39,792 nt of DNA from a virus, in IMG/VR virus record IMGVR_UViG_3300028840_005049, positions 1-39,792 of that record; one strand, written 5' to 3'. Shown here in pieces: positions 175 through 38,784 of this stretch. Each line of letters begins with the position of its first letter. The stretch's first letter is position 1. The position numbers were made by a program, and so were the translations under genes. The notes beneath the pieces were generated by a model. It was not told the DNA's origin. It did not search any database and worked only from the letters and a program-made list of their open reading frames with translations.

Positions 175-744
175 GAAGTATTTGAAAAGATCACATATGA
201 GACAGGAGAGAAGTTTAGAGCGACATGGAAGAGATATATTTATACTTATTGTTTAACCCTTAATAAAGAAGCTGCATGGGAAGCTGCTGGTTTTAGAAGT
301 AAAGATCCAAGCTTCATACCAATAAGAATACAGAACATAGTAAAAACACCAAAAGCTAAAATGGCTATGAGAAGAATTAGTCGCATGCTCCATGTGCATA
401 AAGCTAATTCTGCTGAACGTTTGCTGGAAGAAATAGCAAGACTTGCTTTTGTTGATTATAGAAAATTTTATGATGAATATGGTCAATTACTCCCTATACA
501 TGAATTACCAAGGGAGCTTAGTGCATGCATTAAAGAAGTTAATAGGTATGGTGGATATAAGCTGCACAGCAAGCAGCATTTTTTGAATATGCTTATGCGC
601 TATAAAGCAATGTACCATGATAAAGTAGATATAGGGTTAACGAAAGAAATTGCAGACGCATTAATAAACGCATTGCCTAAAGAATTTCAAGATCAAGTGT
701 TAGAAGCAATAACACAGTATATAGTAAAACAGCAAGATATGTAA
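145..744 (+). CDS. terS: Terminase small subunit (probable)
   Basis: The protein has 199 residues from the ATG at 145. Small terminase subunits bind phage DNA at the packaging site and hand it to the large subunit. The call rests on position immediately upstream of an unmistakable large terminase, on size, and on an N-terminal helical region (residues about 15-75) that looks like a DNA-binding domain (the segment NKEAAWEAAGF is typical of small-terminase HTH regions). A TTG at 133 would add four residues from the preceding repeat copy. The ATG at 145 is preferred, although its ribosome site (GAAGAAG) is weak. The strong AAAAGGGA site at 21-28 serves the ATG at 34 of the first repeat copy instead. 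With a single repeat unit that strong site would directly drive this gene. Confidence 0.7.
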   Translation: MQKDIPPHIEEVFEKITYETGEKFRATWKRYIYTYCLTLNKEAAWEAAGFRSKDPSFIPIRIQNIVKTPKAKMAMRRISRMLHVHKANSAERLLEEIARLAFVDYRKFYDEYGQLLPIHELPRELSACIKEVNRYGGYKLHSKQHFLNMLMRYKAMYHDKVDIGLTKEIADALINALPKEFQDQVLEAITQYIVKQQDM

Positions 745-754
745 ATCTAATACT

Positions 755-2254
755 ATGATAACACCGCAAGCGCAAAACTTTGTTAATGCTTTAATTGACA
801 ATATCCCTAAAAGAGATATCCTATCTGTATTCTCTCATATGCATTATGACACACCGGAAGAACAGCAAAAAACAAAAGATCATTTCCCTACCTTTTTTAG
901 AAAAGTATTTTATACTCTAAATCCTGCTACTAAGTATCTGCATAATTGGCACATAGATGCTATTAGTGAACATCTAATGGCATGTTGGAAAAGAGAAATA
1001 CTTAGATTACAAATAAACATACCCCCAAGATATATGAAAAGTACTTTGGTTTCAATAGCCTTTCCTGCCTTTGTGTTGGGTCATAATCCATCTGAACAAT
1101 TCTTATGTGCAAGTCATAGTAAAGCACTTGCTTTAGAGCACAGCGTTTCTTGCAGGACAGTTATGCAAAGCAAATGGTACAAGGCTATTTTTACTGCTGC
1201 AAAGATAAGGTCTGGTCAAGCAGAGAAAAGAAAATTTACTACCCTGAAAGGTGGGCATAGAATAGCTACATCAGTAGGTGCAAGTACTATTGGATTAGGC
1301 GGTAACTTTTTGATAGCTGATGATTTGATTGATCCTGAAAGATCCTATTCAGATCAACATAGGCATGTAGCAAACAGGTACTATGATCAATCATTTTCTA
1401 CAAGACTTAATGATAAGAAAACCGGTGTTATTATAATCATTATGCAAAGATTACATGAAGATGACCCTTGTGGCCATGCCCTAACACAAGAAGAATGGAC
1501 ACGGTTAGTTATTCCTGCTGAATCTGACAAGAGAAGAATTTATAACATCGGTAAATACACAAAGGTATTTGAAAAGGATGAAGTACTTCATCCTGAAAGA
1601 GAAGGTAAAGAAGAATTAGACACTGCTAAAGTTAAACTTGGATCTTATGGCTATTCAGCGCAATATCTTCAAACACCTACACCGCTTGAAGGTGGGTTAG
1701 TGCATATTGATTGGTTTAGAAGATATAAGACATTACCAGATGCAAAAGAAATTACTATGGTTATTCAGGTATGGGATACAGCACAGAAGACAAATGAAAT
1801 ATTAAATGATCCATGGGTATGTGGTACATGGTTGATTACATATACTCATTACTACCTTGCACATGTTTACAGGGATTGGATGAACTATCCAACCGGGAAA
1901 AGAAAAGTAAAAGAATTGTGGAGCATATGGAGGCCAAACACAATTATAATAGAAGATAAATCAACTGGTTCTTCGCTTATTCAGGAGTTAAGTGGTTTAC
2001 CGGTTATCCCTTATGAACCGGAAGGAGATAAGCTGGAAAGGTTATCATCTGAATCACCAACAATTGAATCAGGTTTATGTTATTTGCCTGAAGAAGCTGA
2101 TTGGTTATTTGAGTTTGAACAAGAAATCAAATTCTTTCCAAATTCTACCTATAAAGATCAAGTAGACATGCTTTCTTGTTTTCTAAGGTACATGAACAAG
2201 AGGAGCATACGGTGGGAGAATTTTGGATTAGGAAACAGGATGGAAACAGCATGA
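755..2254 (+). CDS. terL: Terminase large subunit
   Basis: This 499-residue protein is the ATP-driven packaging motor and headful or site-specific nuclease. The ATPase half shows a Walker A-like segment (IPPRYMKST, about residue 90) and a Walker B segment (FLIADD, about residue 185). The C-terminal RNase H-like nuclease has the expected acidic residues in VWDTAQKT, IIIEDKSTG and DQVDML. It starts 10 bases after the small subunit and its stop overlaps the portal start (ATGA at 2251-2254), so the three genes are probably translationally coupled. No clear Shine-Dalgarno sequence precedes the ATG. Length is normal for the family. Confidence 0.96.
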   Translation: MITPQAQNFVNALIDNIPKRDILSVFSHMHYDTPEEQQKTKDHFPTFFRKVFYTLNPATKYLHNWHIDAISEHLMACWKREILRLQINIPPRYMKSTLVSIAFPAFVLGHNPSEQFLCASHSKALALEHSVSCRTVMQSKWYKAIFTAAKIRSGQAEKRKFTTLKGGHRIATSVGASTIGLGGNFLIADDLIDPERSYSDQHRHVANRYYDQSFSTRLNDKKTGVIIIIMQRLHEDDPCGHALTQEEWTRLVIPAESDKRRIYNIGKYTKVFEKDEVLHPEREGKEELDTAKVKLGSYGYSAQYLQTPTPLEGGLVHIDWFRRYKTLPDAKEITMVIQVWDTAQKTNEILNDPWVCGTWLITYTHYYLAHVYRDWMNYPTGKRKVKELWSIWRPNTIIIEDKSTGSSLIQELSGLPVIPYEPEGDKLERLSSESPTIESGLCYLPEEADWLFEFEQEIKFFPNSTYKDQVDMLSCFLRYMNKRSIRWENFGLGNRMETA

Positions 2255-4428
2255 GCATACTTAAAATGTTTAAGTCAAAAGAAGTAAAGCCACCAGTAGA
2301 AAATATTGCTTCTCCTGTTGGTTGGGCTTATTCAAAGATTTACACAGATAAAAATTTTAAGCCATACAATGAGGATATTCTCCTTGTAAATAAAGGAAGT
2401 GATATCTACAGAAGAATGATGTGTGATGATCAAGTAAAAGCAGTAATGAGGTTTAAGCAGTATTCTGTTATTTCAAGGGGGTGGTTTTTTGATGTAGATG
2501 AAGAAAATCCTATGCATGGTGAAATAAGTGATTTTTTCTCTACGATGTTGGAGCAAGTAAAAGGATCATTTAAAGATAAGCTGATAATTATTTTGTCTTC
2601 ATTAATTAACGGTTTTTCAATAACTGAAAAGCACTATGGTAATATCATGTTTGACTCTAAGCCATACTGGGGAGTAATTGACTTTCGCAAATTGCCTTTT
2701 CATACATTTACTTTTGTTACTGATGCTTGTGGCAGGGTGGAAAAACTATTGCAGGAGCAAGGCACAGAAGAAGTTGAAATAAATATGGATAGAGTAATAC
2801 ATCATGTTTACCAACCTGATATGGATCATCTTTATGGTGAAAGTGATTTGAAAGCAGCATATAGACCATATTGGAGTAAAGATATAACTATCAAATTTAG
2901 AAACATCCATCTTGAAAGACATGCTACTGGTTTTATATATGCAGTTGTTTCCGGTAATATAAATTCAGCACAGCAAAATCTTTTAGAAAATTTTTTGAAC
3001 AATGTCACAGCAAGATCTTCTGCATGGGTGCCAGATAATATTAAGCTTGAAAAGTTTGATGCTATTAGGACAGATGCATACGAGAAGGCATTAGTTCAAG
3101 ATGATAAAGCAATAGCAAAAAGCATACTTGTACCTAATTTACTGGGATTGTCAGAGCAAGGTAGTACCGGTAGTTATGCACAAAGCAAAACACAATTTGA
3201 TGCTTTTTTATCTATCCTTGACTATGAAGCAGATAGATTAGCAGAAGTATTAAATGAGCAAATGTTTTCAGAGCTTGCTCTATGGAACTTTGCAACAGAA
3301 GATTATCCACGATTTAGATTTGATCCTATGACAAAAGACATGAAAGGAGAACTTGCTAAACAATGGACAGACCTTATTAAAGGTGGCAGTGTTACAAAGT
3401 CAAAGAACGATGAAACATATATTAGAAATCTAATGGGCTTTCCTGAAAAAAGTGAAGAAGAAAACATTGAAGATCAACCTGAAGATATAGGTATGGATAA
3501 TCTTGACTGGTTATTGGATCAACCAGAAGAAGATATTGGTTTTATAAAAAGTGAGTTTAAAGAAAAGCCTTGGTTGAGAAGAGTAAATTTTAAACGTCTT
3601 GAAAATACTTTAACTACAGTAGATAAAGCCTTTGGGCAAGATGTAGCTGACATATTGGCAGACGTACGATTTAACTTTGAATCACAGATAGCAAAATTAG
3701 CCGGTGAGAGATCATTAGGATATGTTAAACCAAAAGAACTTGAATCAATTAAATTTCCATCTACGCTCGAATCAAAATTGAAAAAAGTAATTAGGCAACA
3801 TACTACCGATAGTTTAAATAAGCACTATAGTTACGCAAAGAAAGAAATACCCAAGAAGAAATTTGCAAAGATTCTACCATCAGCAATGGACAAATTACAA
3901 AGAGAAAAATTTCTTTCTTCAATTGCTATGCGCCTTGGTGGATGGTTAGGTACAAAGCTACTTGGTGAAGTTTTGCAGCATCTTGAAAATGGTATCCGGT
4001 ATGATTATACACCAACACAAGCAGTAAATAGATTATTGGATGGTGGATTAGCAAGCTATCTACCAGAGTATGAGTATTTTATAAGAGATGGTAAAGAGAT
4101 CAGGAGAGCTATTAATATTCCTGCGAGAATTGAAAACATGGTAAGAACTGCTAACTCTGATGCAATGAACCAAGCAAGATTAGCTGCTTTTAATGATCCT
4201 GAATTAAAAGGCTTTGTTCTTGCTTTAGAATATAGTGCTGTAATGGATGATAGAACAACTGCTATTTGTCAATCTCTCCATGGTAGAATCATGAAAGACT
4301 TTGGTGCGTATTATCCACCAAATCATCATTCATGCAGAAGTATATGTATACCAGTGACAGTAGTAGATAACTGGGATGGTAAAGAAAGCACAACACCATC
4401 AATTAAACCCCAAAAAGGTTTTTATTAA
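2251..4428 (+). CDS. Portal protein (DUF935, Mu gp29-like) fused to a MuF head-morphogenesis domain
   Basis: The protein has 725 residues. The N-terminal 430 or so resemble the DUF935/Mu gp29-like portal family, which forms the ring through which DNA enters the capsid. The C-terminal third resembles the Mu gpF minor head protein. It ends with the family signature (VMDDRTTAIC, then PPNHHSCRS), including the conserved Cys and His residues. In Mu these are two separate genes; here they are one chain. The start chosen is the ATG at 2251, which overlaps the terL stop. An earlier TTG at 2176 would overlap terL by 79 bases and add nothing family-like. A highly acidic stretch near residues 405-435 probably forms the linker. 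Confidence 0.9.
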   Translation: MSILKMFKSKEVKPPVENIASPVGWAYSKIYTDKNFKPYNEDILLVNKGSDIYRRMMCDDQVKAVMRFKQYSVISRGWFFDVDEENPMHGEISDFFSTMLEQVKGSFKDKLIIILSSLINGFSITEKHYGNIMFDSKPYWGVIDFRKLPFHTFTFVTDACGRVEKLLQEQGTEEVEINMDRVIHHVYQPDMDHLYGESDLKAAYRPYWSKDITIKFRNIHLERHATGFIYAVVSGNINSAQQNLLENFLNNVTARSSAWVPDNIKLEKFDAIRTDAYEKALVQDDKAIAKSILVPNLLGLSEQGSTGSYAQSKTQFDAFLSILDYEADRLAEVLNEQMFSELALWNFATEDYPRFRFDPMTKDMKGELAKQWTDLIKGGSVTKSKNDETYIRNLMGFPEKSEEENIEDQPEDIGMDNLDWLLDQPEEDIGFIKSEFKEKPWLRRVNFKRLENTLTTVDKAFGQDVADILADVRFNFESQIAKLAGERSLGYVKPKELESIKFPSTLESKLKKVIRQHTTDSLNKHYSYAKKEIPKKKFAKILPSAMDKLQREKFLSSIAMRLGGWLGTKLLGEVLQHLENGIRYDYTPTQAVNRLLDGGLASYLPEYEYFIRDGKEIRRAINIPARIENMVRTANSDAMNQARLAAFNDPELKGFVLALEYSAVMDDRTTAICQSLHGRIMKDFGAYYPPNHHSCRSICIPVTVVDNWDGKESTTPSIKPQKGFY

Positions 4429-4429
4429 A

Positions 4430-4762
4430 ATGCCTGATAAAGAAAAATGTAGTAAATGTGGTAAAGATATATCAGGGTCACTTAGTTTCAGAATTGGTGA
4501 TGTAGTGAAATGCGAAAATTGCTTCCAGAAAGACAATCCAATGCCTCAAGTCAGAAGTTGTTTAGGTGAAATAAGGGAATTGAGAAGACTACTTTGGGTA
4601 ATGCACTTAGATCATTTTCATGATCTTTATAGCGACGATGGAAGAATGCAGTGCCCAAAATGTATGATTGATTTTAAAAGGGATAATATAAGGTACATAT
4701 CCAAAAGGCTTGCTGAAGCAAGAGAAGAATTTTACAATCGTAAGGGGGTAGACAAAGATTGA
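4430..4762 (+). CDS. Small zinc-binding protein
   Basis: The protein has 110 residues from the ATG two bases after the portal stop. It contains three CxxC knuckles: CSKC near residue 6, CENC near residue 29 and CPKC near residue 75. Two would make one zinc ribbon and the third may be structural. No catalytic signature is visible. It ends in a TTGA overlap with the first radical SAM gene, so the two are probably made together. It could be a zinc-ribbon accessory of the enzyme cassette or an independent minor virion protein. I do not recognise the family. Confidence 0.75.
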   Translation: MPDKEKCSKCGKDISGSLSFRIGDVVKCENCFQKDNPMPQVRSCLGEIRELRRLLWVMHLDHFHDLYSDDGRMQCPKCMIDFKRDNIRYISKRLAEAREEFYNRKGVDKD

Positions 4763-5454
4763 AGCTAAATACAATTACTACAATAGAGCTTGTTAATAAT
4801 TGTAATCTTGCTTGCAAGTATTGCATTAACAGGTTATTGCAGCTTGAAGAATGTAGAGAGATAGGTATTATGCATGAAGCGGTATTTACTGCTACATTAG
4901 AGGTACTTAAAACCTTGTGTGATAGAGGCACACAAAAAGAAGTAAATATGAACGGCAATGGCGAAAGTTTTTTAGATCCTGATTTAGTGCGTAGAATTGC
5001 TGCTGTACGTGCTGTTGTTGGTGATGGTCGGATGGTTGGGATATCTACCAATGCAACAGTTGGCTTTACAGAAGATAAAGTTAAGGCTTTGAAGGAAGTT
5101 GGTTTAAGTCAATTGGATATCTCTCCCCATAGTCCTTATCATGCGAGAAGGGCCATAGATATTATACGTAAGGTAGATATCCCTTCCGTTTTTAATGCTT
5201 CTCCTGTAATTGATTCTCATAACTGGGCTGGTCAATTAGAAGAAGAAAACTCTATTGATGTACGCATAAATATTATTTGTCACCCATTGCTTGAAGGTAG
5301 AGGCTATGTTTTAAAAGAAGGTTTTATTACTCCATGTTGCTATGATTATAAAAATTTTGGTGTGTTTGGTAGTGTGTTTGACGATGATATATTTGACCAA
5401 GAAATAAAACGATATTCTTTGTGTGACACATGCCATCAAAGGATAGTTTCTTAA
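4759..5454 (+). CDS. Radical SAM enzyme with SPASM/twitch-like C-terminus (first copy)
   Basis: The protein has 231 residues from the TTG at 4759. The start is supported by an AAGGGGG ribosome site at 4742-4748 and an overlap with the previous stop. The CxxxCxxC iron-sulfur motif (C15, C19, C22, in CNLACKYC) is the radical SAM hallmark. A GxGES segment (about residue 68) corresponds to the SAM-binding GGE motif. Near the C-terminus, TPCCYD followed by LCDTCH looks like the auxiliary-cluster cysteines of twitch/SPASM domains. Such enzymes do radical chemistry on peptides, sugars or nucleosides; the substrate here is unknown. It is a diverged paralogue of the gene at 6009, sharing RGTQKE/QGTQKE and NWAGQ segments. 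It is short compared with full SPASM proteins. Confidence 0.88.
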   Translation: MKLNTITTIELVNNCNLACKYCINRLLQLEECREIGIMHEAVFTATLEVLKTLCDRGTQKEVNMNGNGESFLDPDLVRRIAAVRAVVGDGRMVGISTNATVGFTEDKVKALKEVGLSQLDISPHSPYHARRAIDIIRKVDIPSVFNASPVIDSHNWAGQLEEENSIDVRINIICHPLLEGRGYVLKEGFITPCCYDYKNFGVFGSVFDDDIFDQEIKRYSLCDTCHQRIVS

Positions 5455-5993
5455 TAACTGGGTGTTCTGTATCAGGCACGTCTTTACTTCATGGTTTAAT
5501 TAGCCATAATTCAGCTTGTTGCGTTGATTATGAGTATTTTAGATATAAACATGATGTAAGAAAAGCAATTATATCATGGCAAGACAAAGCAAAAAAGACA
5601 AAGCTTATTTGGGGTAACAAAATTCCATATGAGCAGTTTATAACAAGTAAACCAAAATGGGAAGAAGAAGATATTGTAAAATTAATTGATCTGTTTAAAA
5701 TAGTGTTTATTCAAAGACGGTTTACAATGTATGCGAAGCAAAATAGTTCAGATGTCAAATATAAGGTGTACTGGAATAATGCAAATTATAATGTATACTG
5801 GGCAATGAGAGAATATAAACCAGATAAAATAATAGCAGTTTCTTTTGAAGATCTTTGCTTGCGGCCAAGAGCAGAAGTAAATAGAATATGTGATTTTCTT
5901 GGCATTCCCTTTGAGTATGAAGAAATGATAAAAGGCACTATTAATGGTAAAAGTAGATTATCTAAAATTGGTTTTGATCTATCAAGGGTGTAA
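5430..5993 (+). CDS. Sulfotransferase-like protein
   Basis: The protein has 187 residues. The N-terminal ITGCSVSGTSLL (residues 8-19) matches the PAPS-binding 5'-phosphosulfate loop of sulfotransferases (canonical form GxPRSGTT). VFIQRR near residue 93 lies where the 3'-phosphate-binding strand is expected. The C-terminus has the familiar SFEDL...ICDFLGIPFE pattern that ends many sulfotransferases. These enzymes move sulfate from PAPS to hydroxyl groups of sugars or proteins. The gene overlaps the first radical SAM gene by 25 bases and has no clear ribosome site, so it probably depends on translational coupling. The canonical Arg-Ser of the loop reads Val-Ser here, which may alter affinity. 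At 187 residues it is smaller than most family members. Confidence 0.75.
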   Translation: MPSKDSFLITGCSVSGTSLLHGLISHNSACCVDYEYFRYKHDVRKAIISWQDKAKKTKLIWGNKIPYEQFITSKPKWEEEDIVKLIDLFKIVFIQRRFTMYAKQNSSDVKYKVYWNNANYNVYWAMREYKPDKIIAVSFEDLCLRPRAEVNRICDFLGIPFEYEEMIKGTINGKSRLSKIGFDLSRV

Positions 5994-6008
5994 AGGGGGT
6001 ATAGTGTA

Positions 6009-6710
6009 ATGGTGATGATGTCAACAATTAATACCATAGAGCTTTCTTCTGTATGCAATAATAAATGTGCTTATTGTCCTGCTAAAGATCAACATAAGTA
6101 TAGAGAAGTTGGGCATATGAAAAGGGAAGTATTTGAAGCTGCTTTAGAAAAAGTACTTTATTTTGCAAGACAGGGTACACAAAAAGAACTTAATCTATTT
6201 GGTGTTGGAGAACCAACCTTGCATTCAAATCTTATTGAGTTTGTTGAATTGGCAAGAAATACTTTGCCATTGTCTCAACATATCCATCTCAATACTAACG
6301 GTAGATTAATGACAAGGGAGCTTGCATTAAAATTAAAAAAAGCCGGTATTACATCAATGGATGTGACAATACATGATGGTTATTACAGAGAAGCAGTAAA
6401 AACAATAAGAATATTCATGGAATTAAACATCCTTTTTAGACCGTCAATTGATCCTGTTATTGGCCCGAATAACTGGGCCGGGCAAGTTGATTGGTTTGAT
6501 CCAATGTATTCCTCCCCTTGTCCATGGATAGGTAAAGGACAGGGAGTAGTACTATCAAATGGAGACATAACAAGATGCTGCATAGATGCTTTCGCTAAAG
6601 GTGTCATGGGGAATATATTAAAAGATGATATAACAAAGATGAATGTTACCGCCTTTTCACTTTGCAACAAATGCCACCATACAGACCCATTGAATATAAT
6701 TACAAGGTAA
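6009..6710 (+). CDS. Radical SAM enzyme with SPASM/twitch-like C-terminus (second copy)
   Basis: The protein has 233 residues. CNNKCAYC (C16, C20, C23) is the radical SAM cluster motif and FGVGEPTL is the SAM-contacting GxGEP motif. TRCCID...GNI...LCNKCHH at the C-terminus is very like the auxiliary iron-sulfur cluster region of SPASM/twitch enzymes. The NNWAGQ segment is shared with the paralogue at 4759. Translation probably starts at the ATG at 6009, after an AAAGGGGG site. ATGs at 6015 and 6018 are alternatives. Two diverged radical SAM genes flanking a sulfotransferase-like gene suggest one pathway with two related radical steps, but no substrate can be named. Confidence 0.9.
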   Translation: MVMMSTINTIELSSVCNNKCAYCPAKDQHKYREVGHMKREVFEAALEKVLYFARQGTQKELNLFGVGEPTLHSNLIEFVELARNTLPLSQHIHLNTNGRLMTRELALKLKKAGITSMDVTIHDGYYREAVKTIRIFMELNILFRPSIDPVIGPNNWAGQVDWFDPMYSSPCPWIGKGQGVVLSNGDITRCCIDAFAKGVMGNILKDDITKMNVTAFSLCNKCHHTDPLNIITR

Positions 6711-6723
6711 AGGAGTGCTTAAA

Positions 6724-7863
6724 ATGCCATACAGCAAAATTGATGAATTGCCGGAAGAAGTAAAAGCTCTTGGTGCTGATAAAGCACAGCAATGGCTTAA
6801 TGTGTTTAATTCAGTGTTTAAGAAAACAAATGATGAAAAAGAAGCAGCAAAGCAAGCATGGGGTGTAGTAAAAAAAGATGCTGATGAAAAATTTTCAATT
6901 GACATGGAAATTTTTTCAGAAGGTACATGGAACGGAGAAAAATTTACTACTAATGATTTAGATAATATTACTGCTGCTTTTAATGAATTGAAAAAAGAGT
7001 TTTTGCCTCGCATTAAATTAGGACATGCTGAAAGTCAAGTAGATGTTGCTTTAGGCACCATAAATAATATTTGGAGAAGTGGCAAAAAATTAATGGCAAG
7101 TATTATAGATATGCCAAGGATAGTTTATGATGCTGTTAAAAATAAGCTATTCCAAGGTGTATCCGTTGAGCTAATGGTTGATTATAAATCTTTAAATGGA
7201 AATAAATATCCGTTAGCGTTAAGTGCTGCTGCTTTACTTGGTGGTGAATTACCAGCAGTAAAAGATCTTGCTGGTTTAACTGCTTATATGAAGCAAACAG
7301 GCACTTTTCTTTTAAAACGTGCTTACTCAAATAAAAAAGGAGAAGAGAAAATGGTAGATATTACACAAGCAGAGTATGACGAATTGAAGAAAAATGCAGC
7401 AAACGCAAAAACACTTGCTGATAAAATCATTGAAATGGAAAAAGACATAAAAGCAGAACAGCAAGCAGCTTTACAGAAAAAATTTACTTCTGCTGTAAAG
7501 GAGTTTAAAGAGTTCTGCAACAAGATGGTAGAAGATAAAAAGCTTATGCCAGCAAACAGGGATTTGTTCTTTGGGCAAGTTGATAAAAAATCTTTTAAGG
7601 ATGAATCATCTATTGAAGAGATTGAAACATTGAAAGTATTTGTTGAAAATCAGATAAAAACTTTTGATGCTAAATCAAATGCCAGTAATGAAAATCCTAA
7701 AGATTTTGAAGATCCTGCTGAAGAACTTCATTTTAAAACAACTGAATATTTAGTCAATCATCCTGATGTTGAATACGAACAAGCTCAAAAACTTATTTTG
7801 ATGAAGGATGCTAAATTGGCTAAAAAATATGCTGATAGACCGTATACATTACCAGCTAAATAA
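6724..7863 (+). CDS. ChaB-domain prohead protease/scaffold (Mu gpI-like)
   Basis: The protein has 379 residues from the ATG at 6724, eight bases after AAGGAG at 6710-6715. A GTG at 6715 lies inside that ribosome site and is not used. Residues 1-50 resemble ChaB (PYSKIDELPEEV...AAKQAWGVVKK), a domain often found at the front of phage proteases. The protease part follows; H101 (KLGHAES) and S147 (GVSVEL) are the likely catalytic pair by analogy with S78-type and Mu gpI proteases. The C-terminal 170 residues are charged and helical, as expected for scaffold. Role: capsid assembly and self-removal during maturation. An in-frame internal start yields the scaffold alone (see 7351). Confidence 0.85.
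   Translation: MPYSKIDELPEEVKALGADKAQQWLNVFNSVFKKTNDEKEAAKQAWGVVKKDADEKFSIDMEIFSEGTWNGEKFTTNDLDNITAAFNELKKEFLPRIKLGHAESQVDVALGTINNIWRSGKKLMASIIDMPRIVYDAVKNKLFQGVSVELMVDYKSLNGNKYPLALSAAALLGGELPAVKDLAGLTAYMKQTGTFLLKRAYSNKKGEEKMVDITQAEYDELKKNAANAKTLADKIIEMEKDIKAEQQAALQKKFTSAVKEFKEFCNKMVEDKKLMPANRDLFFGQVDKKSFKDESSIEEIETLKVFVENQIKTFDAKSNASNENPKDFEDPAEELHFKTTEYLVNHPDVEYEQAQKLILMKDAKLAKKYADRPYTLPAK
7337..7342 (+). promoter_or_regulatory. Internal ribosome binding site for nested scaffold
   Basis: A perfect AAGGAG lies inside the protease gene, eight bases before an in-frame ATG at 7351. The spacing and strength match the sites before the stand-alone structural genes. Confidence 0.85.
7351..7863 (+). 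CDS. Nested scaffolding protein (internal start of the protease gene)
   Basis: The product is 170 residues, beginning at residue 210 of the protease gene, in the same frame. It is acidic-basic and predicted helical or coiled coil (from about residue 15: AKTLADKIIEMEKDIKAEQ), as scaffolds are. Nested protease/scaffold pairs are established for Mu I/Z and lambda C/Nu3. The arrangement yields many scaffold copies per protease copy. The scaffold directs assembly of the major capsid protein encoded 0.4 kb downstream and is then degraded. The call rests on the strong internal ribosome site and the domain boundary. Confidence 0.8.
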   Translation: MVDITQAEYDELKKNAANAKTLADKIIEMEKDIKAEQQAALQKKFTSAVKEFKEFCNKMVEDKKLMPANRDLFFGQVDKKSFKDESSIEEIETLKVFVENQIKTFDAKSNASNENPKDFEDPAEELHFKTTEYLVNHPDVEYEQAQKLILMKDAKLAKKYADRPYTLPAK

Positions 7864-7884
7864 AAAAGGAAGGGAGTAATTACT

Positions 7885-8268
7885 ATGGCTACTGATGGTC
7901 AAAAATTTGTAACCAGTGTTATAGCAGCAGAAGATTTATCTGCTGTTGGACAGTATAGAGCCTTTGCGTTTAATGATAGAAAGCTTGCAAATTCTTCATT
8001 AGAAGCAAATGGCATCATTGAAAATAAACCAGCTTCAGGGGAGCATGTTAGAGTAGCATACGCCGGTGAGCTAAAGTTTATTGCTGGTGGTGCTGTTGCA
8101 GCAGGCACAAGAGTAAAAGCGACAACTTCAGGTTATTTTGTCGAATGCGCTTCTGGTGATCATGCAGTTGGTTTTTGTGGCCCTGATGCTGTAACAAGTG
8201 GGAGTGTTGGCAGAGGCTTTTTTAATTTTACAACAGTTAATTACCAACCCACTTCAAATAATGTTTAG
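7885..8268 (+). CDS. Capsid decoration (cement) protein, DUF2190-like
   Basis: The protein has 127 residues and is small and Gly/Ala-rich. It has a beta-rich pattern (VRVAYAGELKFIAGG, AAGTRVKATTSGYF, GDHAVGFC) like DUF2190 head-decoration proteins of Mu-like phages. Such proteins sit on the outer capsid surface and stabilise it. It lies between the scaffold and the major capsid genes, the usual place for cement proteins, and has a strong AAGGGAG ribosome site. Being surface-exposed, it is one possible acceptor for the virion-modifying enzymes nearby; that is inference. Confidence 0.8.
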   Translation: MATDGQKFVTSVIAAEDLSAVGQYRAFAFNDRKLANSSLEANGIIENKPASGEHVRVAYAGELKFIAGGAVAAGTRVKATTSGYFVECASGDHAVGFCGPDAVTSGSVGRGFFNFTTVNYQPTSNNV

Positions 8269-8283
8269 AAAGGAGTATTTACT

Positions 8284-9252
8284 ATGGGTGCTACTGGTCA
8301 TGATTTACATATAGATGTACCATTGAGTAATATTATTATAAACTATAAACCAAGGGGGCTTGAAATTTGTGAAGCAATCGCCCCTGTTGTTCCGGTAGTA
8401 AAGCAATCTGATTCTTTTATCGAATGGAACAAGGAAGATATTTTTAGAGTAGAAGCAGACGATAGAGCACCGGGAACAGAAGCAAAACGAATTACACGCA
8501 ATGTTTCAAGCGATGTGTATAATGCAAAGAACTATGCACTAAAAGATGCTCTTACATTAGAAGATAGAGAAAATATGGATGCTGCTTATCTTGTTGAATT
8601 AAGACAAGGTAAAGCAAAATATATCAAACAAAAGTTGATGTTAAACTGGGCATATCGCCTGTTTGGTACACACTTGTCTACTTCTAATGTAGCATCATAT
8701 AATACTGTTGCATCGGATTGGATTGAACATAGAAATGGCTACTCAGACCCGTTAGGCGATTGCTTTCAGGCCATAAAAAATGTTGAAGCCACTACGGGCA
8801 TTAGACCAAACTCCTGTTTAATGTCTTCAGTCGCATGGGAGCAATTCAGGCAACATGCTGATGTGATTGACGTAATCCATGGTAGTCAAGCACCGCAAAA
8901 AGGAAGTCGCTTTGCTAATCATGATGGGTTTAGAAACATCTTTGAGCTTGACAGGTTCAATGTTGTTGAGACTTATTATAGTACAGCACAGGAAGGACAA
9001 GCTGCTTCTATTGCTCATATGTGGGGAGATAAAGTTTTATTTTACTATGCCCCCTTGGCACCGTCTAAAGATGATCCTTCATACATGTATTCTTTTAGAT
9101 GGAGAAAACCATCTATTCCTGAATTTTCTGTTGAAGTTCATCCTTTTGATAGAAAGATTAAAGCGGAAGAAGTAGAAGTAGGATATTACCAAGATGAAAA
9201 AGTAATTAGTACTGCTCTTGGCTATATGATCACAAATCCTACTTCAGTTTAA
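8284..9252 (+). CDS. Major capsid protein
   Basis: The protein has 322 residues. Its position after scaffold and decoration genes, its size, and its pattern all fit a major capsid protein of the Mu/B3-type group, presumably with the HK97 fold. The visible features are an N-terminal arm, long helices around residues 90-125 (LEDRENMDAAYLVE), a central WEQFR...VIDVIHGSQ segment and a C-terminal beta-rich domain. Hundreds of copies form the icosahedral shell. A strong AAAGGAG site precedes the ATG. A large hairpin follows the stop. I cannot see a cleavable delta domain, consistent with a separate scaffold. Confidence 0.85.
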   Translation: MGATGHDLHIDVPLSNIIINYKPRGLEICEAIAPVVPVVKQSDSFIEWNKEDIFRVEADDRAPGTEAKRITRNVSSDVYNAKNYALKDALTLEDRENMDAAYLVELRQGKAKYIKQKLMLNWAYRLFGTHLSTSNVASYNTVASDWIEHRNGYSDPLGDCFQAIKNVEATTGIRPNSCLMSSVAWEQFRQHADVIDVIHGSQAPQKGSRFANHDGFRNIFELDRFNVVETYYSTAQEGQAASIAHMWGDKVLFYYAPLAPSKDDPSYMYSFRWRKPSIPEFSVEVHPFDRKIKAEEVEVGYYQDEKVISTALGYMITNPTSV

Positions 9253-9258
9253 GTAACA

Positions 9259-9294
9259 AATGCAGGAGTGTTATATTCATAATGCTCCTGCATT
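9259..9294 (+). terminator. Hairpin after the major capsid gene
   Basis: AATGCAGGAG (9259-9268) pairs perfectly with CTCCTGCATT (9285-9294), and the stem can continue inward through two G-U pairs. No T-run follows, so it is more likely a partial terminator or an RNA-stabilising or processing hairpin than a full stop. It would help keep capsid mRNA abundant relative to the downstream glycosyltransferase. Confidence 0.7.
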
Positions 9295-9319
9295 AACACA
9301 TCTTTAATAGGGGGTAGGA

Positions 9320-9493
9320 ATGCTAAGAGACGATGCAATAAGAGAAGGTTTAATTGACCCGGCAAAAGAAGATATTGCCAGAATGAATTTAACATCAGAA
9401 GAATTAAAAAAATTGGAGAAGTTAAGAAAAACTAAGGTGCCCCCAGTTATTCCAGAGGCACCTAAAACAAAGTCAACATTTCATAAGAAGTAG
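9320..9493 (+). CDS. Small hypothetical protein (57 aa)
   Basis: The ORF of 57 residues starts at an ATG closely preceded by GGGGTAGGA. The protein is charged and helical, with a C-terminal Pro/Lys tail ending in HKK. No family is recognised. Its position directly after the major capsid gene, before the glycosyltransferase, resembles small head genes of Mu-like phages. It could equally be a leader ORF. There is no competing frame here. Confidence 0.65.
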   Translation: MLRDDAIREGLIDPAKEDIARMNLTSEELKKLEKLRKTKVPPVIPEAPKTKSTFHKK

Positions 9494-9517
9494 TCTTTAT
9501 ATTAAGGGGGTTAACAA

Positions 9518-12481
9518 ATGTATATACTAATGCATGTGGGCGGTATGCCTTTTAATGGTGATACAATACCAAGTGGCAAATCTTTAGGTGGCAGTGAATC
9601 AGCAGCTTATTACATTGCCAAAGAACTTGTTTCAATGGGCCATTATGTAGATTTATTTACAAACGAAAAAGAAGGCGGTAAAAAAGATGGTGTTTTTTAT
9701 TCTTACGCCGGTGAGGTAAGCGAGAATGCCCCATTAGGTGATAAGTTCAGGTTTATATCACAAGTGCCATATGATGTTTGCATCATTCAAAGACATCCTT
9801 TAGCTTTTACTTTACCTAATAACGCAAAATTAAATATATGGTGGGTACATGATTTAGCTTTACTTCGCACAAGGAGCACTGTCTTAAATCAGAAGTGGAA
9901 TATAGACGGCGTTTTTCCTGTTAGTGAATGGCACAGTGAGCAAATTAAAGAAGTATATGATTTCACTGAAGATGTTATGTTTCCTACATCAAATGGTTTT
10001 GATTATTCACAAATAACAAAATATAATATTGATGTAGAGCAACAAAGGGAAGAAAAATCCCTTGTGTATGCTGCAAGGCCAGAAAGAGGGTTAATAAATT
10101 TGGTTGATACTGGTGGCATTATGGAGATGTTGCCAGATTATCATCTATACGTATGTGGGTATGATAATACTACTCCACGCATGGTTGATTTTTATAACTA
10201 CTTATGGTCAAGGTGCCATGCTCTACCTAACGTAACACTAATGGGTAATTTATCAAAAGAAAATCTTCTTAAAACAATGTCTAAATGCAAAGCCTATGTG
10301 TATCCTACTGAATTTGAAGAAACATTTTGCACTATGGTACTTGAAGCAAATGCTGTAGGCACACCATTTATTGGCACTGATGCAGGAGCATTGTCTTCTA
10401 CTCTTCAAAATACAGGTGGAAAATTAATAGAAACTGGGCCATTATCTATTGATACAGAAGAAGGTAGAAAACATTTTGCTTCTTCTTTGGTATCGACAAT
10501 AGAAGATAAAGATAAATGGAATACAATGCACAGGCACGCTCTTAAAAGAAGGCTGACATGGAAAAGTGTTGCTGAGCAATGGTTAGAAATTTTTAACGGG
10601 CTTTTTGAAAAGCAGCAAAAAGATAAATATAGAATGGCAAAGCACTTCGAGAACATGAGTGACATTGTAGCTGCTGATAAATTAGGTTTAATAGACCATA
10701 TACCAGAAGTAGAGACAAATTATTATTTTTACTTTAATAAGAAGTATAGAGAACATTATAAAAACTACTATGCATATGAAGAGAAAAGGGGCGTAGTATA
10801 TGGTCCTGAAAAACTCCATGGCAATGAGCGTTTTGAGCAAGTACTTGATGTAATTGATGCATGCATGCAGAAGGAAATCACAAATGTAAGCAAAGAAAAA
10901 CCATTCACCATACTTGATTATGGATGTGCTCATGGTCATTATACAATGAACATACTTGAAAGAATACCCTACCAAAATCTTTTTGTAACTGGTGTTGACA
11001 TAGAAGAATCAAATATTGAAAAGGCTAAAAAATGGGCTGAAGATAAAGAAGAAAAAAGAGCAAACTTTACAACAGTTGATATTATGGAGGCATTATTTGA
11101 GGGAAAATTTCTTGTAGAAGATGCACCATATGATCTTATCCTACTTGGTGAAGTATTGGAGCATGTTGAAGATCCGGTAGCATTACTACATAAGATAAAA
11201 AAATATGCAAAACCTGATGCACACATAATAATTACTACACCATATGGGCCATGGGAGTCTACCGGTTATCACTTGCATAAAGGATGGAGAGCACATCTGC
11301 ATCATTTTGAAAGACAAGATCTTGAAGACTTATTCATAGATCAAGATAACTATAAACTTTTTGCTGTTCCAGTGCATTATAACCTTGGTTCTTTTGTTGT
11401 TTATTTTACTTTATCTGAAAAGCCTTTCGGTAATATAGATTATAAAAGAAAGCAAATGCTACAGGCACCAAAAGAAACAATATCTCTATGCATGATTGCA
11501 AAAGATGCTACAGATACACTTGGTAAAACACTCAATCCTATGTTACCATATGTGGATGAAGTAATCCTTGGAATTGATAAAACTTCTTCTGATGAATTTA
11601 AAGATTTTATAGCAAGGCAATATTCGTATTCAGGTGAACAATGGCAAAGTTACAAAGTAAAAATGATTGATATTGAATCGCCGCTTATTACTGGTTTTGA
11701 TGTAGCAAGAAATGTGACAGTGGAAAAAGCAACCTGTGATTGGGTAATGTGGTTAGACGCTGATGAAATAGTTGATTATCCTGAAAACATAGGGAAATAT
11801 TTGCGTAATAACGGCTTAACTGCTTATTCATTAAAGCAAGTACATGTTTGTACTCAACCTGAAGGACATTTAAAAACAGATTTACCAGCAAGGATTTTTA
11901 GAAGAAAAGAAGGTGTACGTTTTTGGGGTTTTGTTCATGAGCACCCTGAAGAAGAATATAATAGTGGCATGAAGCATGTTTATCTTTTGCCAGATTGCAG
12001 TATTTTGCACGCTGGTTATTTATGCGAGAAAGTGAGAAGAAAACGTTTTGAAAGAAATTTTCCCTTAATGCAAAAAGACAGAGAAAAATACCCTGATAGA
12101 AGATTAGGTACTTTTTTATGGCTTAGAGATCTAACTCATATGAATAGGTATACCCTTGAAAAAAATGGGCATGTTATTACTCCACAAATGAAAGAAAGGT
12201 CAAAGGAAGCCATAAAAATATGGAGAAGTCTTTTGAAATCAGGTGAAGTAAGGTTTGTTGTTGAAGGGTTGGCTTACTATTCTGAACATGTTACACATTT
12301 AGTTGGTGAGAACGGTTTTGAATTTGATTTTAAAATGGAAATAGCGCATCCTTTATCTGGGGGTAGAAGTAATTTCTCTGGCCCTGTTAAGGGGTACTTT
12401 ATAAATCACGATGACATAAAAGCATTGGTTGATTATTTAAGAAAAGAAGTAACTGACGTTTATAAAAAGAAGTATTTATAA
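9518..12481 (+). CDS. Trifunctional GT4 glycosyltransferase - methyltransferase - GT2 glycosyltransferase
   Basis: The protein has 987 residues in three recognisable parts. Residues 1-380 form a GT-B fold GT4-like transferase, with the terminal E-x7-E motif in EETFCTMVLEANAVGTP. Residues about 430-650 form a class I SAM methyltransferase, with motif I ILDYGCAHGHYT and LLGEVLEHVEDP. Residues about 655-900 form a GT-A fold GT2-like transferase, with ISLCMIAKDA at the N-terminus and the DxD-type WLDADE motif. All catalytic signatures look intact. The protein would add at least two sugars and a methyl group to an acceptor, probably cytoplasmic because no signal or membrane segment is seen. It follows the capsid gene with its own AAGGGGG site. 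Likely targets are virion proteins or a virion glycan; host envelope modification is the alternative. Confidence 0.88.
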   Translation: MYILMHVGGMPFNGDTIPSGKSLGGSESAAYYIAKELVSMGHYVDLFTNEKEGGKKDGVFYSYAGEVSENAPLGDKFRFISQVPYDVCIIQRHPLAFTLPNNAKLNIWWVHDLALLRTRSTVLNQKWNIDGVFPVSEWHSEQIKEVYDFTEDVMFPTSNGFDYSQITKYNIDVEQQREEKSLVYAARPERGLINLVDTGGIMEMLPDYHLYVCGYDNTTPRMVDFYNYLWSRCHALPNVTLMGNLSKENLLKTMSKCKAYVYPTEFEETFCTMVLEANAVGTPFIGTDAGALSSTLQNTGGKLIETGPLSIDTEEGRKHFASSLVSTIEDKDKWNTMHRHALKRRLTWKSVAEQWLEIFNGLFEKQQKDKYRMAKHFENMSDIVAADKLGLIDHIPEVETNYYFYFNKKYREHYKNYYAYEEKRGVVYGPEKLHGNERFEQVLDVIDACMQKEITNVSKEKPFTILDYGCAHGHYTMNILERIPYQNLFVTGVDIEESNIEKAKKWAEDKEEKRANFTTVDIMEALFEGKFLVEDAPYDLILLGEVLEHVEDPVALLHKIKKYAKPDAHIIITTPYGPWESTGYHLHKGWRAHLHHFERQDLEDLFIDQDNYKLFAVPVHYNLGSFVVYFTLSEKPFGNIDYKRKQMLQAPKETISLCMIAKDATDTLGKTLNPMLPYVDEVILGIDKTSSDEFKDFIARQYSYSGEQWQSYKVKMIDIESPLITGFDVARNVTVEKATCDWVMWLDADEIVDYPENIGKYLRNNGLTAYSLKQVHVCTQPEGHLKTDLPARIFRRKEGVRFWGFVHEHPEEEYNSGMKHVYLLPDCSILHAGYLCEKVRRKRFERNFPLMQKDREKYPDRRLGTFLWLRDLTHMNRYTLEKNGHVITPQMKERSKEAIKIWRSLLKSGEVRFVVEGLAYYSEHVTHLVGENGFEFDFKMEIAHPLSGGRSNFSGPVKGYFINHDDIKALVDYLRKEVTDVYKKKYL

Positions 12482-12484
12482 AAA

Positions 12485-15088
12485 ATGGCAGTAACCGAAA
12501 TCATAAAAAATGGGCATCAGTATGAAGTTGAATTAGGCACTACCGATGCTGTAAGGGAAAAAGGCAATGCTAAGATAAAAATTGGTGGCGTTGATGTAAA
12601 TAAGTTTGTGCCTACCATGCACAGTAGTAAATGGGATGAAGAAGCATTTTTAGAAATAATTGTTCCTGAAAATGTGCAAGATGAAATAGAAGTATTTAAG
12701 AATGGCATTATTGAATTGACAATTGGTGATGTTACTTGGAAGTATTACAAAAATGCAGATGAAGCCTTATCTTTTGAAGTAGTTTTATTATCAAGGCCAC
12801 CAAAAATAAGTTGGACTTTTCAGCTTGCCTTTTCCCCTTCTCTTGTCTTTCATCATCAGGGAACTTTAGAAGATGATTGGAATTACTATTCAAATGGTGG
12901 CACCCGTAAATACTGGGGGTGTACCACCCTTGCAGAATTTTTAGCAATATCAAGACGGCCAGAAAATATAGTAAACTCATATGCAGTTTACTACAATAAG
13001 AAGAATAATAAATACTTAACCGGGAAATTTTGCCATATAGAAAGGCCAAAGTTAGTTGATGCTTTAGGTGCAACAACATATGCTGTACAAGAAATTATTG
13101 TTACCAGTCTTGGCACAGCAGAATGGACTATTACATGTGATAGAGATTGGTTAAGGAATGCTACATACCCTGTAGTTATTGATCCTGTTGTTGGGTATAA
13201 CTCCATTGGTGGCAGTAGCACAGAACCAGGTGAAGTATTTTTTGGTGGAAGATACGCTTGTCCTTCTGCTGGTGATATTGACGATATTCAAGTATATGCG
13301 GAAAAAACTGGTGGCGCTCCCATTGTCCGTATGGGGGTATATGAAGATAATGGTGGCACAGTAGCAAGCCAAGATTTATTAACAGCTAATGAATCAGAAA
13401 TATCTTTGCCGGCAAATCCTGCATGGATGCAAGACTCTGGTATAACTGGCGCTTTGCCAGCAGATGATATATGGTTATGTGTTGCTACTGATGGTGCATG
13501 GATGGTTTACTATGACACTTCAACTGCTGGTTATGATGATACTGAAGCATATTGGAGTTTTTCTTATGCGGATGCAATGCCAGATCCGGCACCATCTGAG
13601 ATGGAGGGATACGCTCTTGAATTAAGTTTTTATGCAAACTATACTGAAACTGGTGCCGGAGAAGACTACATTGAAGTATTGTTATCCTCTGTAAACATAC
13701 TGGATACCGAAAAGAGAAGTATAACCTTTAAGCGAATTATTAGTGCTGCTGTTAATTTATCCGAAAACATAAGAAGGTTAATAACATTTAAAAGGATCAT
13801 GACAGCAGGTATTGATATTGTGGATATTAACAGAAGAATATCTGCAATGAAAAGATTAATTTATAGTCAACTTGGCATAAACGAAAATGCAAAAAGGCAA
13901 ATAGTCTTTAAGCGGTATATATTTGCAGATGTTGGAATAGAAGAAAATAATTCTGCAAAAAGAATTATGCAGAGAATTATGACTTCAAGCATGGGCATAT
14001 ATGAGCAAGTAAAACGGGCATTTGTTTTTAATAGAATGTTTTACGATACAGTTGGTATAGGTGAATCAATCCAGAGAAAGATTTCTTTGAAAAGAATTAT
14101 TTTTGAAGCTGTAAATTTAGTTGATAATATCAATAAAAAGATATCTACTGCATTGAAGAAGGTGATATCTGAAAGCATTAATGTTTTATCAATCATTAAA
14201 AAGAAAGGCACATTTAAAAGAGTATTAACCGAAGCAGTTGATATCACAAGCATAGCTAAAAGAAGCATTATATTTATAAGAAATATTACTTCTGGTGTTG
14301 CTCTCCTTGAATTAAACAAGAAGACATTTTCAATAATAAAAAGGATACTTGAAAATGAAAAAATCAGCGACACTACTAAACGCAAAATTGACTATAAAAG
14401 ATTTGTCGCTTCTGGTGTTAGCCTATTTGATAGTAATATTCGTAATATTACTACCACAATTAAAATATTGGTTAATGAGCTTATCAACATTTCGGAAGTG
14501 ATTGATAAAAGGTTATCAACATCAATTAAAAAGATAATAAGCGAGAGCATTTTCATATATGATGATGCTACTGCTAAAATATTCACTGCATTTAAAAAGA
14601 TAATAAGTGAAGCAATCGCTATTTATGATATATGCAAAAGAAGCATTAGTTTTAAAAGGGTATTTTTAGAAGCAATTGATGTTGGCGAAAACATAAGTAA
14701 AAAAGCAAGCATAAATAAAATCATACATGCTGTTGTTGCATTATCTGATGTGTTAATAAGAAAGTTAGTGTTAAAAAGAGCAATGCTTTCATCTATGGTT
14801 ATTACTGATGGGCTTTTACGTAGGATAACATATAAAAGAATACTATCTTCAGTTGTTGATATTACTTCAAACATAAACAGGAGATTAACCACTGCTCTTG
14901 TTAAAATAATTGAAGATACTGTAACAATAATAGATGGTATTCAATATAGTAAGATTGTAGCATATGCTATAGCCTTATCAACTTTTTTAGCCACTTTTAC
15001 ATTAGATACTTTAAAGCGGCTTTTTCACTTTGATAATAAAACAAGAAGCTTTACAAAAGATAATGATGAAAGGAAGTTTAAACCATGA
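12485..15088 (+). CDS. Large virion protein with about 20 tandem 20-residue repeats
   Basis: The protein has 867 residues. Residues 1-230 are beta-rich. Residues about 230-395 look like a jelly-roll or carbohydrate-binding type domain (GGRYACPSAG...VRMGVYEDNGG...WLCVATDG). Residues about 397-820 are built of roughly 20 degenerate repeats of 20-22 residues with the consensus KRxISFKRIIxEAVxIxExI. The last 45 residues are basic. I do not recognise the family. The architecture (globular head plus long solenoid or fibrous repeat) suggests a fibre, whisker or capsid spike. It lies next to the glycosyltransferase gene and may be its acceptor or partner. No signal peptide is present and no clear ribosome site precedes the ATG, which lies three bases after the previous stop. 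Confidence 0.75.
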   Translation: MAVTEIIKNGHQYEVELGTTDAVREKGNAKIKIGGVDVNKFVPTMHSSKWDEEAFLEIIVPENVQDEIEVFKNGIIELTIGDVTWKYYKNADEALSFEVVLLSRPPKISWTFQLAFSPSLVFHHQGTLEDDWNYYSNGGTRKYWGCTTLAEFLAISRRPENIVNSYAVYYNKKNNKYLTGKFCHIERPKLVDALGATTYAVQEIIVTSLGTAEWTITCDRDWLRNATYPVVIDPVVGYNSIGGSSTEPGEVFFGGRYACPSAGDIDDIQVYAEKTGGAPIVRMGVYEDNGGTVASQDLLTANESEISLPANPAWMQDSGITGALPADDIWLCVATDGAWMVYYDTSTAGYDDTEAYWSFSYADAMPDPAPSEMEGYALELSFYANYTETGAGEDYIEVLLSSVNILDTEKRSITFKRIISAAVNLSENIRRLITFKRIMTAGIDIVDINRRISAMKRLIYSQLGINENAKRQIVFKRYIFADVGIEENNSAKRIMQRIMTSSMGIYEQVKRAFVFNRMFYDTVGIGESIQRKISLKRIIFEAVNLVDNINKKISTALKKVISESINVLSIIKKKGTFKRVLTEAVDITSIAKRSIIFIRNITSGVALLELNKKTFSIIKRILENEKISDTTKRKIDYKRFVASGVSLFDSNIRNITTTIKILVNELINISEVIDKRLSTSIKKIISESIFIYDDATAKIFTAFKKIISEAIAIYDICKRSISFKRVFLEAIDVGENISKKASINKIIHAVVALSDVLIRKLVLKRAMLSSMVITDGLLRRITYKRILSSVVDITSNINRRLTTALVKIIEDTVTIIDGIQYSKIVAYAIALSTFLATFTLDTLKRLFHFDNKTRSFTKDNDERKFKP
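13676..14946 (+). repeat. Region encoding the 20-residue repeat array
   Basis: About 20 coding repeats of 60-66 bp. The protein period is clear: a basic pair, a hydrophobic-Ser-x-Lys-Arg-Ile-Ile stretch, then an acidic/Ala-Val segment. Examples are KRSITFKRIISAAVNLSENI and KRSISFKRVFLEAIDVGENI. Some units carry one or two inserted residues (NKKISTALKKVISESI). The nucleotide sequences have diverged, so the array is old or under diversifying drift rather than a recent duplication. Confidence 0.88.
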
Positions 15089-23762: not shown

Positions 23763-24158
23763 ATGGAGGAAATAAAAATACTTCTTGACTTTTTGAAAAG
23801 CCATTGGGCAATTATTGTTTTTGGCTTATCATGCGCTATTGTACTTTACGATAGCTACAAAAAAATACCAAAGCTTGATATGAGAATAACTATGCTTGAA
23901 GAAAATCCACAATGCCCCGACCATGATCCTTGTATAAAAAACATTGAAAAAAGTATTATTACACTTGATGCACAGATATGCACAAGCGTGAATGATCTTG
24001 ATAAGAAATTATGTAGATCAATTAATGATGTGAAAGAGAAAATAAACACTCTTTCAAAAGATGCAAAAGTTGACAGAAAAGATATTGCTGATAAATTTGA
24101 ATTAATTCATCATTCTTTAGGTGTGATAGAAGGGAAAATTGACAATGTACCCAAATAA
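23763..24158 (+). CDS. Membrane-anchored coiled-coil protein, possible inner spanin
   Basis: The protein has 131 residues. A transmembrane helix lies near residues 12-30 (HWAIIVFGLSCAIVLYDS), followed by a Cys-containing segment (CPDHDPCIKNIEKSI) and a long charged coiled coil. Position just before the amidase, holin-like protein and lipoprotein matches the inner-membrane partner of a two-component spanin. The coiled-coil length and the single N-terminal anchor support that reading, but the sequence match to known spanins is not clear. The gene ends inside the amidase gene. Confidence 0.5.
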   Translation: MEEIKILLDFLKSHWAIIVFGLSCAIVLYDSYKKIPKLDMRITMLEENPQCPDHDPCIKNIEKSIITLDAQICTSVNDLDKKLCRSINDVKEKINTLSKDAKVDRKDIADKFELIHHSLGVIEGKIDNVPK

Positions 24159-24561
24159 AATTATACTACACCACAGTTTAACAAAAGATGGAGAAGTTGT
24201 TAATTGGAATGCTATTAGAAAATATCATGTTAACACACTGCATTGGAAAGATGTAGGCTATCACTTCGGCATTGAGCTTATTGGTAGCAGGTATGAAATA
24301 TTAACCGGCAGACTTATGACAGAGAAAGGAGCACATACAAAAGGCTATAACGGTGATTCTTTAGGAGTTTGCTTAATCGGTAATTTTGATGAAAAAGAGC
24401 CACCGGAAGAACAATGGAGACTTGCAGTAGACTTTGTAAGATCACTTTGCACAATTTGTTATATTTCTCCGCAAAGTGTTTTTGGGCATAGGGATTTTGC
24501 AAATTATAAATCTTGCCCTGGTTCTTCTTTTTCCATTGAGAAATTTAGATCACAACTTTAG
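24145..24561 (+). CDS. Endolysin, N-acetylmuramoyl-L-alanine amidase (Amidase_2, T7-lysozyme type)
   Basis: The protein has 138 residues from the ATG at 24145, nine or ten bases after GAAGGGA; a TTG at 24139 is too close to that site. It cuts the amide bond between muramic acid and the peptide in peptidoglycan. Zinc ligands are H9 (IILHHS), H115 (FGHRD) and C124 (KSCPG). Y39 in VGYHF matches the conserved catalytic Tyr of T7 lysozyme. GVCLIGNFD is the usual family core. There is no cell-wall binding domain, as in endolysins of Gram-negative hosts. Confidence 0.92.
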   Translation: MYPNKIILHHSLTKDGEVVNWNAIRKYHVNTLHWKDVGYHFGIELIGSRYEILTGRLMTEKGAHTKGYNGDSLGVCLIGNFDEKEPPEEQWRLAVDFVRSLCTICYISPQSVFGHRDFANYKSCPGSSFSIEKFRSQL

Positions 24562-38759: not shown

Positions 38760-38784
38760 GATATGTTTTCTCCTTTCGTTAGAT

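Follow-up and report, generated by a model that had tools for sequence, protein, structure and literature searches.

The virus record analysed here (39.8 kb, referred to as the window over its whole length) encodes two small radical SAM enzymes, rSAM1 and rSAM2, between the genes for a portal-MuF fusion and a head maturation protease, a slot which the pair also occupies in dozens of divergent phages. A further enzyme encoded shortly after the major capsid protein (MCP), a fusion of GT4, methyltransferase and GT2 domains (GT-MT-GT), is the constant partner of these head genes. The chances are in our view somewhat better than even that the entire module serves the late-expressed glycosylation of a virion protein and the tailoring of the attached glycan, together with head assembly. 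The initial annotation of the locus had already proposed the modification of a virion component, which is still the likeliest role; it overlooked GT-MT-GT, arguably the more significant discovery of the two. The features of the region are as follows.

2176..4428, plus strand: portal-MuF fusion, bounding the slot on the left (Portal_Mu, 1e-40; Phage_Mu_F, 4e-8; reading frame open from 2176, searched from a start at about 2248)
4430..4762, plus strand: small zinc-ribbon-like ORF with CxxC pairs (zinc-ribbon matches below threshold only)
4759..5454, plus strand: rSAM1, twitch-type radical SAM enzyme of 231 aa (PF04055, 43 bits; TTG start)
5430..5993, plus strand: ST, sulfotransferase-like protein, optional cargo (Sulfotransfer_3, 1.2e-14)
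6009..6710, plus strand: rSAM2, twitch-type radical SAM enzyme of 233 aa (PF04055, 60 bits)
6724..7863, plus strand: head maturation protease/scaffold, bounding the slot on the right (PHROG 976, 1.5e-20; PHROG 3894)
7885..8268, plus strand: cement/head decoration protein, candidate acceptor (PHROG 673; weak match to Phage_cement_2)
8284..9252, plus strand: MCP, candidate acceptor (PHROG 1005, 2e-50)
9518..12481, plus strand: GT-MT-GT, 987 aa, core partner (Pfam)

Organization of the head region

ORF and family searches returned the gene order terminase, portal-MuF, zinc-ribbon-like ORF, rSAM1, ST, rSAM2, protease, cement protein and MCP, which confirms the arrangement initially reported from portal to protease. 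The genes of the slot are tightly packed, with a 4-bp overlap between the zinc-ribbon-like ORF and rSAM1, a 25-bp overlap between rSAM1 and ST and a 15-bp gap from ST to rSAM2. Both radical SAM starts are preceded by an AAGGGGG ribosome-binding site, the ATG of the protease at 6724 has AAGGAG upstream, and no sense-strand terminator-like site was found within positions 577-12914. As judged from the overlaps, the AAGGGGG sites and the uninterrupted stretch, it is plausible that the head genes and the slot are expressed as one late transcription unit, in line with the co-expression assumed previously. The zinc-ribbon-like ORF has no homolog in the related loci surveyed and is, by this comparison, a passenger that is not conserved in the relatives. 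Two further genes of the window may be mentioned here. An 867-aa protein without a Pfam match, which contains many repeated K-R-hydrophobic segments, is encoded between GT-MT-GT and the neck genes (12485-15088), and similar genes are present in several relatives; an IS110-type transposase domain (Transposase_20) is encoded on the minus strand close to the right end of the record (37872-38807).

The radical SAM pair

Both rSAM1 and rSAM2 contain a CxxxCxxC motif and score above the Pfam Radical_SAM cut-off of 29.5 bits, and are therefore members of the radical SAM superfamily; they are the sole radical SAM matches in the window. The GxGE motif, the NWAGQ segment and the C-terminal cysteines noted at the outset are indeed present in both proteins, and all seven cluster cysteines (C15, C19, C22, C174, C193/194, C222 and C225 in rSAM1) are invariant in alignments of 26 rSAM1 and 27 rSAM2 sequences. 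The four extra cysteines conserved in both groups, together with a BtrN-like fold over the full length, place the enzymes in the twitch class represented by BtrN and MoaA, and their C-terminal domain is twitch-sized with one predicted auxiliary cluster. Of the SPASM/twitch-like C-terminus suggested initially, only the twitch part is borne out: rSAM2 gives a partial SPASM match (20.9 bits against a cut-off of 21.5, positions 1-41 of 67), and its chain stops shortly past the C-terminal CxxC.

The nearest solved structure is BtrN, the 2-deoxy-scyllo-inosamine dehydrogenase of butirosin biosynthesis, a twitch enzyme with one four-cysteine auxiliary cluster that catalyses the two-electron oxidation of an aminocyclitol (PMC9012708). 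BtrN is the best match of rSAM2 by three methods (profile, 7e-17; Foldseek, 2.6e-14; VIA, Z 20.3), with the AlphaFold model (pLDDT 88) superimposing on 220 residues at an rmsd of 3.1 and the next family following at Z 16.9 in a VIA-align list that does not exclude other folds; it is also the top profile match of rSAM1 among solved structures (1.7e-7). Since BtrN is the smallest twitch structure, size alone may favor the match. The phage enzymes share with BtrN the size, the fold and the cysteine set for the radical SAM cluster and a single auxiliary cluster, but show only about 22-24% identity and occur as a phage-encoded pair in a head operon. Moreover, their NWAGQ segment aligns with the NRGG of BtrN, the arginine of which we take to contact the substrate of that enzyme; if so, NWAGQ should mark the substrate side, and the substrate should differ from that of BtrN. 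With NWAG replacing NRGG and no recognisable aminoglycoside genes nearby, the enzymes do not appear to be BtrN orthologs. Features of RiPP maturases are likewise missing, as the radical SAM core starts near residue 4-6 and leaves no recognition extension, and no conserved small Cys-rich precursor ORF lies beside the pair in the surveyed loci. MoaA, viperin, QueE and tungsten-maturase identities were rejected on account of matches that were weak or below the cut-offs.

The two enzymes are 34% identical over nearly their full length (profile-profile E 1e-62). Searching IMG/VR with rSAM1, rSAM2, MCP and GT-MT-GT yielded about 150 loci, which were annotated with purpose-built profiles. In a tree of 82 sequences, phage rSAM1 proteins form one clade (SH-aLRT 100) and rSAM2 proteins another (88), suggesting a duplication older than the sampled phages, although the rooting is weak because the cellular homologs used as outgroups are distant. 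The old duplication claimed in the initial annotation is thereby supported, while its splitting by the ST gene does not hold as a feature of the system. The same tree contains a third phage group, rSAM3 (SH-aLRT 99), which includes pairs of its own (L004, L110, L144 and L152) and represents a second, separate pairing, with duplicated genes near GT-MT-GT or the protease.

Each of rSAM1 and rSAM2 constitutes its own ortholog group occupying the same slot, and the pair is found between portal-MuF and protease even in phages with an MCP only about 50-57% identical to that of the window, so that the fixed linkage to head genes proposed earlier is corroborated. Wherever the contig continues, rSAM1 is followed by rSAM2, the loci with rSAM1 only being cut by contig ends. 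Genes of the rSAM2 type also occur singly, within the slot in L003 and L028 and adjoining GT-MT-GT in L041, L042, L043, L048 and L119; including L004, L144 and L152, eight loci have rSAM2-type genes relocated beside or near GT-MT-GT. The pair also accounts for the only matches to the rSAM2 profile in three related virus records of 35.7-42.7 kb that contain it. Between close pairs of sequences, dN/dS was 0.04-0.14 in rSAM1 and 0.05-0.10 in rSAM2, similar to the values of GT-MT-GT and MCP, which indicates used genes under purifying selection; together with the retention of both enzymes at dozens of loci, this goes far beyond chance. A radical SAM gene is present in the head module of 15 of the 47 loci that have both slots complete and were fetched without radical SAM bait (window included), and such a gene is therefore not needed for the role of GT-MT-GT. 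Frame changes split rSAM2 in L062 (5293-5699) and rSAM1 in L075 (3093-3813), reflecting either decay or sequencing errors. Cultured phages contain no direct match for rSAM1 and only distant ones for rSAM2 (about 24-29%), in Campylobacter phages and unannotated gut phages. One relative was found on a phage-fragment-like 4.3-kb contig of a Deltaproteobacteria/Myxococcota MAG (L079); 26 genomes of that class, searched for GT-MT-GT at E <= 1e-60, contained no match.

GT-MT-GT and the exchangeable genes of the slot

GT-MT-GT combines a GT4, a class I methyltransferase and a GT2 domain and is located 0-1 genes after MCP in 68 of 75 loci; 386 related stretches are present in IMG/VR. Conserved across 20 homologs are the DxDE motif, the HEH histidines, the SAM-binding glycines and the EX7E region, in which Asp can take the place of the first Glu. 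The sole GT2 entries among the best solved matches of the GT2 domain are GmaR (2.5e-29), SunS (2e-22) and the related 7msk (8e-22), all of which are polypeptide glycosyltransferases or relatives thereof: GmaR is the flagellin glycosyltransferase/antirepressor of Listeria and SunS a peptide S-glycosyltransferase. The phage domain differs from both in its fusion to GT4 and methyltransferase domains and in its linkage to capsid genes, and it stays far from the cut-off of the SunS model, the only model applied by cut-off to this domain (45 versus 350 bits). By its linkage to virion genes GT-MT-GT resembles the phage virion glycosylation systems, and it is the best clue to a glycan target on a virion protein. 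Among cultured phages, RDJL Phi 1 has a related capsid protein and no GT-MT-GT annotated in the region, and the one match is partial (28%), in a Manatee Spring podovirus genome (three records). In this unrelated podovirus (L158, MW202524.1, 1656-7307), separate glycosyltransferase genes directly follow MCP with methyltransferase genes nearby, so that this layout probably originated repeatedly.

Among the other genes inserted between portal and protease, most of those that can be recognised encode methyltransferases, either of the glycan-type FkbM family or other class I enzymes. Up to 20 of the 61 slot genes scanned belong to this kind (11 class I and 9 FkbM methyltransferases), compared with none of 66 genes in the control region 3' of GT-MT-GT; the methylases listed upstream of the portal are DNA methylases. 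Several FkbM genes are 60-81% identical to that of L005 and come from one lineage, which implies fewer than 20 independent gains. Among the families matched only once in the slot are a GT2 and a polysaccharide deacetylase. In L009, an N-acetylmuramoyl-L-alanine amidase resembling that at 24139-24561 of the window is encoded between rSAM1 and rSAM2 (5402-5917), so the slot appears able to capture an endolysin.

The ST gene is one of these swappable slot genes and not part of the core, contrary to the original view of it as part of the system. Of the 7 distinct contigs that contain it, most have it upstream of rSAM1, whereas it lies in the tail region of L035 and between the pair in the window; its place is taken elsewhere by methyltransferases, an amidase or nothing, and cultured phages contain no direct match for it. 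The structure check proposed for it gave a divided result. The Sulfotransfer_3 profile is matched and the model resembles TPSTs best (Foldseek 1.7e-7), although at 187 aa the phage protein is much shorter. Its P-loop reads GxxxSGTS, and the usual Arg/Lys, found in TPSTs within RSGT, is replaced at position 14 by V/G/G/G/G/L/G in the seven members. Two other residues, E35 and K64, are invariant among the members and may match the positions of TPST catalytic residues. Random placement as moron genes, named initially as an outcome that would count against the proposal, is not what the neighborhood survey shows for the radical SAM pair, but it is partly observed for ST.

Possible role in virion glycosylation

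Beyond the anatomy, linkage, selection and family assignment described above, we infer the following scheme for acceptor, sugar and chemistry. The GT2 domain would attach a first sugar to the capsid or decoration protein, the GT4 domain would extend the glycan, and the methyltransferase domain would methylate or cap it. rSAM1 and rSAM2 may oxidise or epimerise a sugar, either nucleotide-bound or already on the protein, presumably by means of a 5'-deoxyadenosyl radical and with the four-cysteine auxiliary cluster as electron acceptor. Methylation, and possibly sulfation, by the optional enzymes might follow, resulting in a phage-specific surface chemistry. This reading draws on the location of GT-MT-GT near MCP, its GmaR/SunS-type GT2 domain and its conserved active-site motifs, on the conserved slot of the pair, the relocation of rSAM2-type genes to GT-MT-GT, the similarity to BtrN and the low dN/dS, on the enrichment of methyltransferases in the slot, and on the absence of both a RiPP-recognition extension and any predicted transmembrane segment in the module proteins. 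A more specific version, in which a dedicated pair performs C-H oxidation or epimerisation on capsid-attached sugars as part of a swappable capsid glycan code around GT-MT-GT, set by radical SAM, FkbM, class I methyltransferase and sulfotransferase-like enzymes, is offered only tentatively, as it is possible but doubtful in our estimate. What connects the pair with GT-MT-GT is their position, and the head operon could simply be carrying both along.

In a rival proposal, the enzymes merely sit in the late operon and act on an O-antigen, capsule or S-layer glycan of the host envelope, leading to a superinfection block or receptor change. FkbM and class I methyltransferases are found in surface-polysaccharide clusters as well, and phage glycosyltransferases are commonly given such a role, for example in O-chain modification by pelagimyophages (PMC7029224). 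We nevertheless consider it unlikely, because the genes lie with overlapping starts within the head-assembly operon, no flippase, membrane partner or membrane span is seen in the module, the GT2 domain resembles polypeptide glycosyltransferases, and late expression would be poor timing for receptor conversion. A position in the head operon would also suit enzymes acting directly on side chains of virion proteins, independently of any glycan, as anSME or RiPP maturases do, and anSME, SkfB, SuiB and ChlB are indeed among the next structural neighbors of rSAM2 (Z 15-17). BtrN stands clearly above these peptide enzymes (Z 20.3 versus 16.9), however, and neither a RiPP-recognition domain nor a second auxiliary cluster nor a conserved small Cys-rich precursor ORF by the pair was detected, which makes a direct action on side chains quite improbable.

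The slot accepts unrelated genes (amidase, HTH, polysaccharide deacetylase, pRha), and assorted radical SAM genes are carried by many phages, 11 of them by CP220 (PMC2853527); the pair may on these grounds be seen as auxiliary metabolic or defence-type genes, serving cofactor or nucleotide chemistry, which a permissive site happened to receive. This is very unlikely in view of two ortholog groups in conserved order across divergent phages, the purifying selection and the relocation beside GT-MT-GT, and because no other radical SAM gene was found in the window or the related records and the QueE, MoaA and viperin models matched weakly.

Glycosylation of virion proteins, the reading preferred here, has precedents in mycobacteriophages (Che8 gp110, Corndog gp38 and Myrna), whose glycosyltransferases modify capsid and tail-tube proteins, radical SAM enzymes not being mentioned in the parts of that report considered here (PMC12363180). 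The Campylobacter phages CP220 and CPt10 resemble the present case in possessing many radical SAM genes, 11-12 each (PMC2853527), and a gene of a related Campylobacter phage is annotated as BtrN; these phages are T4-like, however, with about 24% identity, and their genes form an interchangeable, probably non-essential module rather than a pair in a capsid operon. Pelagimyophages carry radical SAM cassettes in host-recognition regions (PMC7029224). In the incompletely covered literature, we came across no capsid operon in which a glycosyltransferase is coupled to a conserved radical SAM pair, nothing uniting radical SAM, sulfotransferase, phage, capsid and glycosyltransferase, and nothing describing the module. 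Phage capsid glycosylation is thus known, whereas its combination with two conserved radical SAM enzymes appears to be undescribed. If the proposed role is correct, radical SAM chemistry would here, as far as we know, be assigned for the first time to the building of a virus particle, capsid glycosylation, known from a few mycobacteriophages, would be constant throughout a large group of uncultured phages, and a defined slot would hold a swappable set of tailoring enzymes. The module represents an experimentally testable system, and its radical SAM proteins may offer small radical enzymes (about 230 aa) for sugar chemistry. Tandem cement-protein genes, the products of which are possible glycan acceptors, are present in L005, L006, L022, L025, L027 and L030, and the longer cement copy found in some of these loci comprises 238 aa in L005 and L006.
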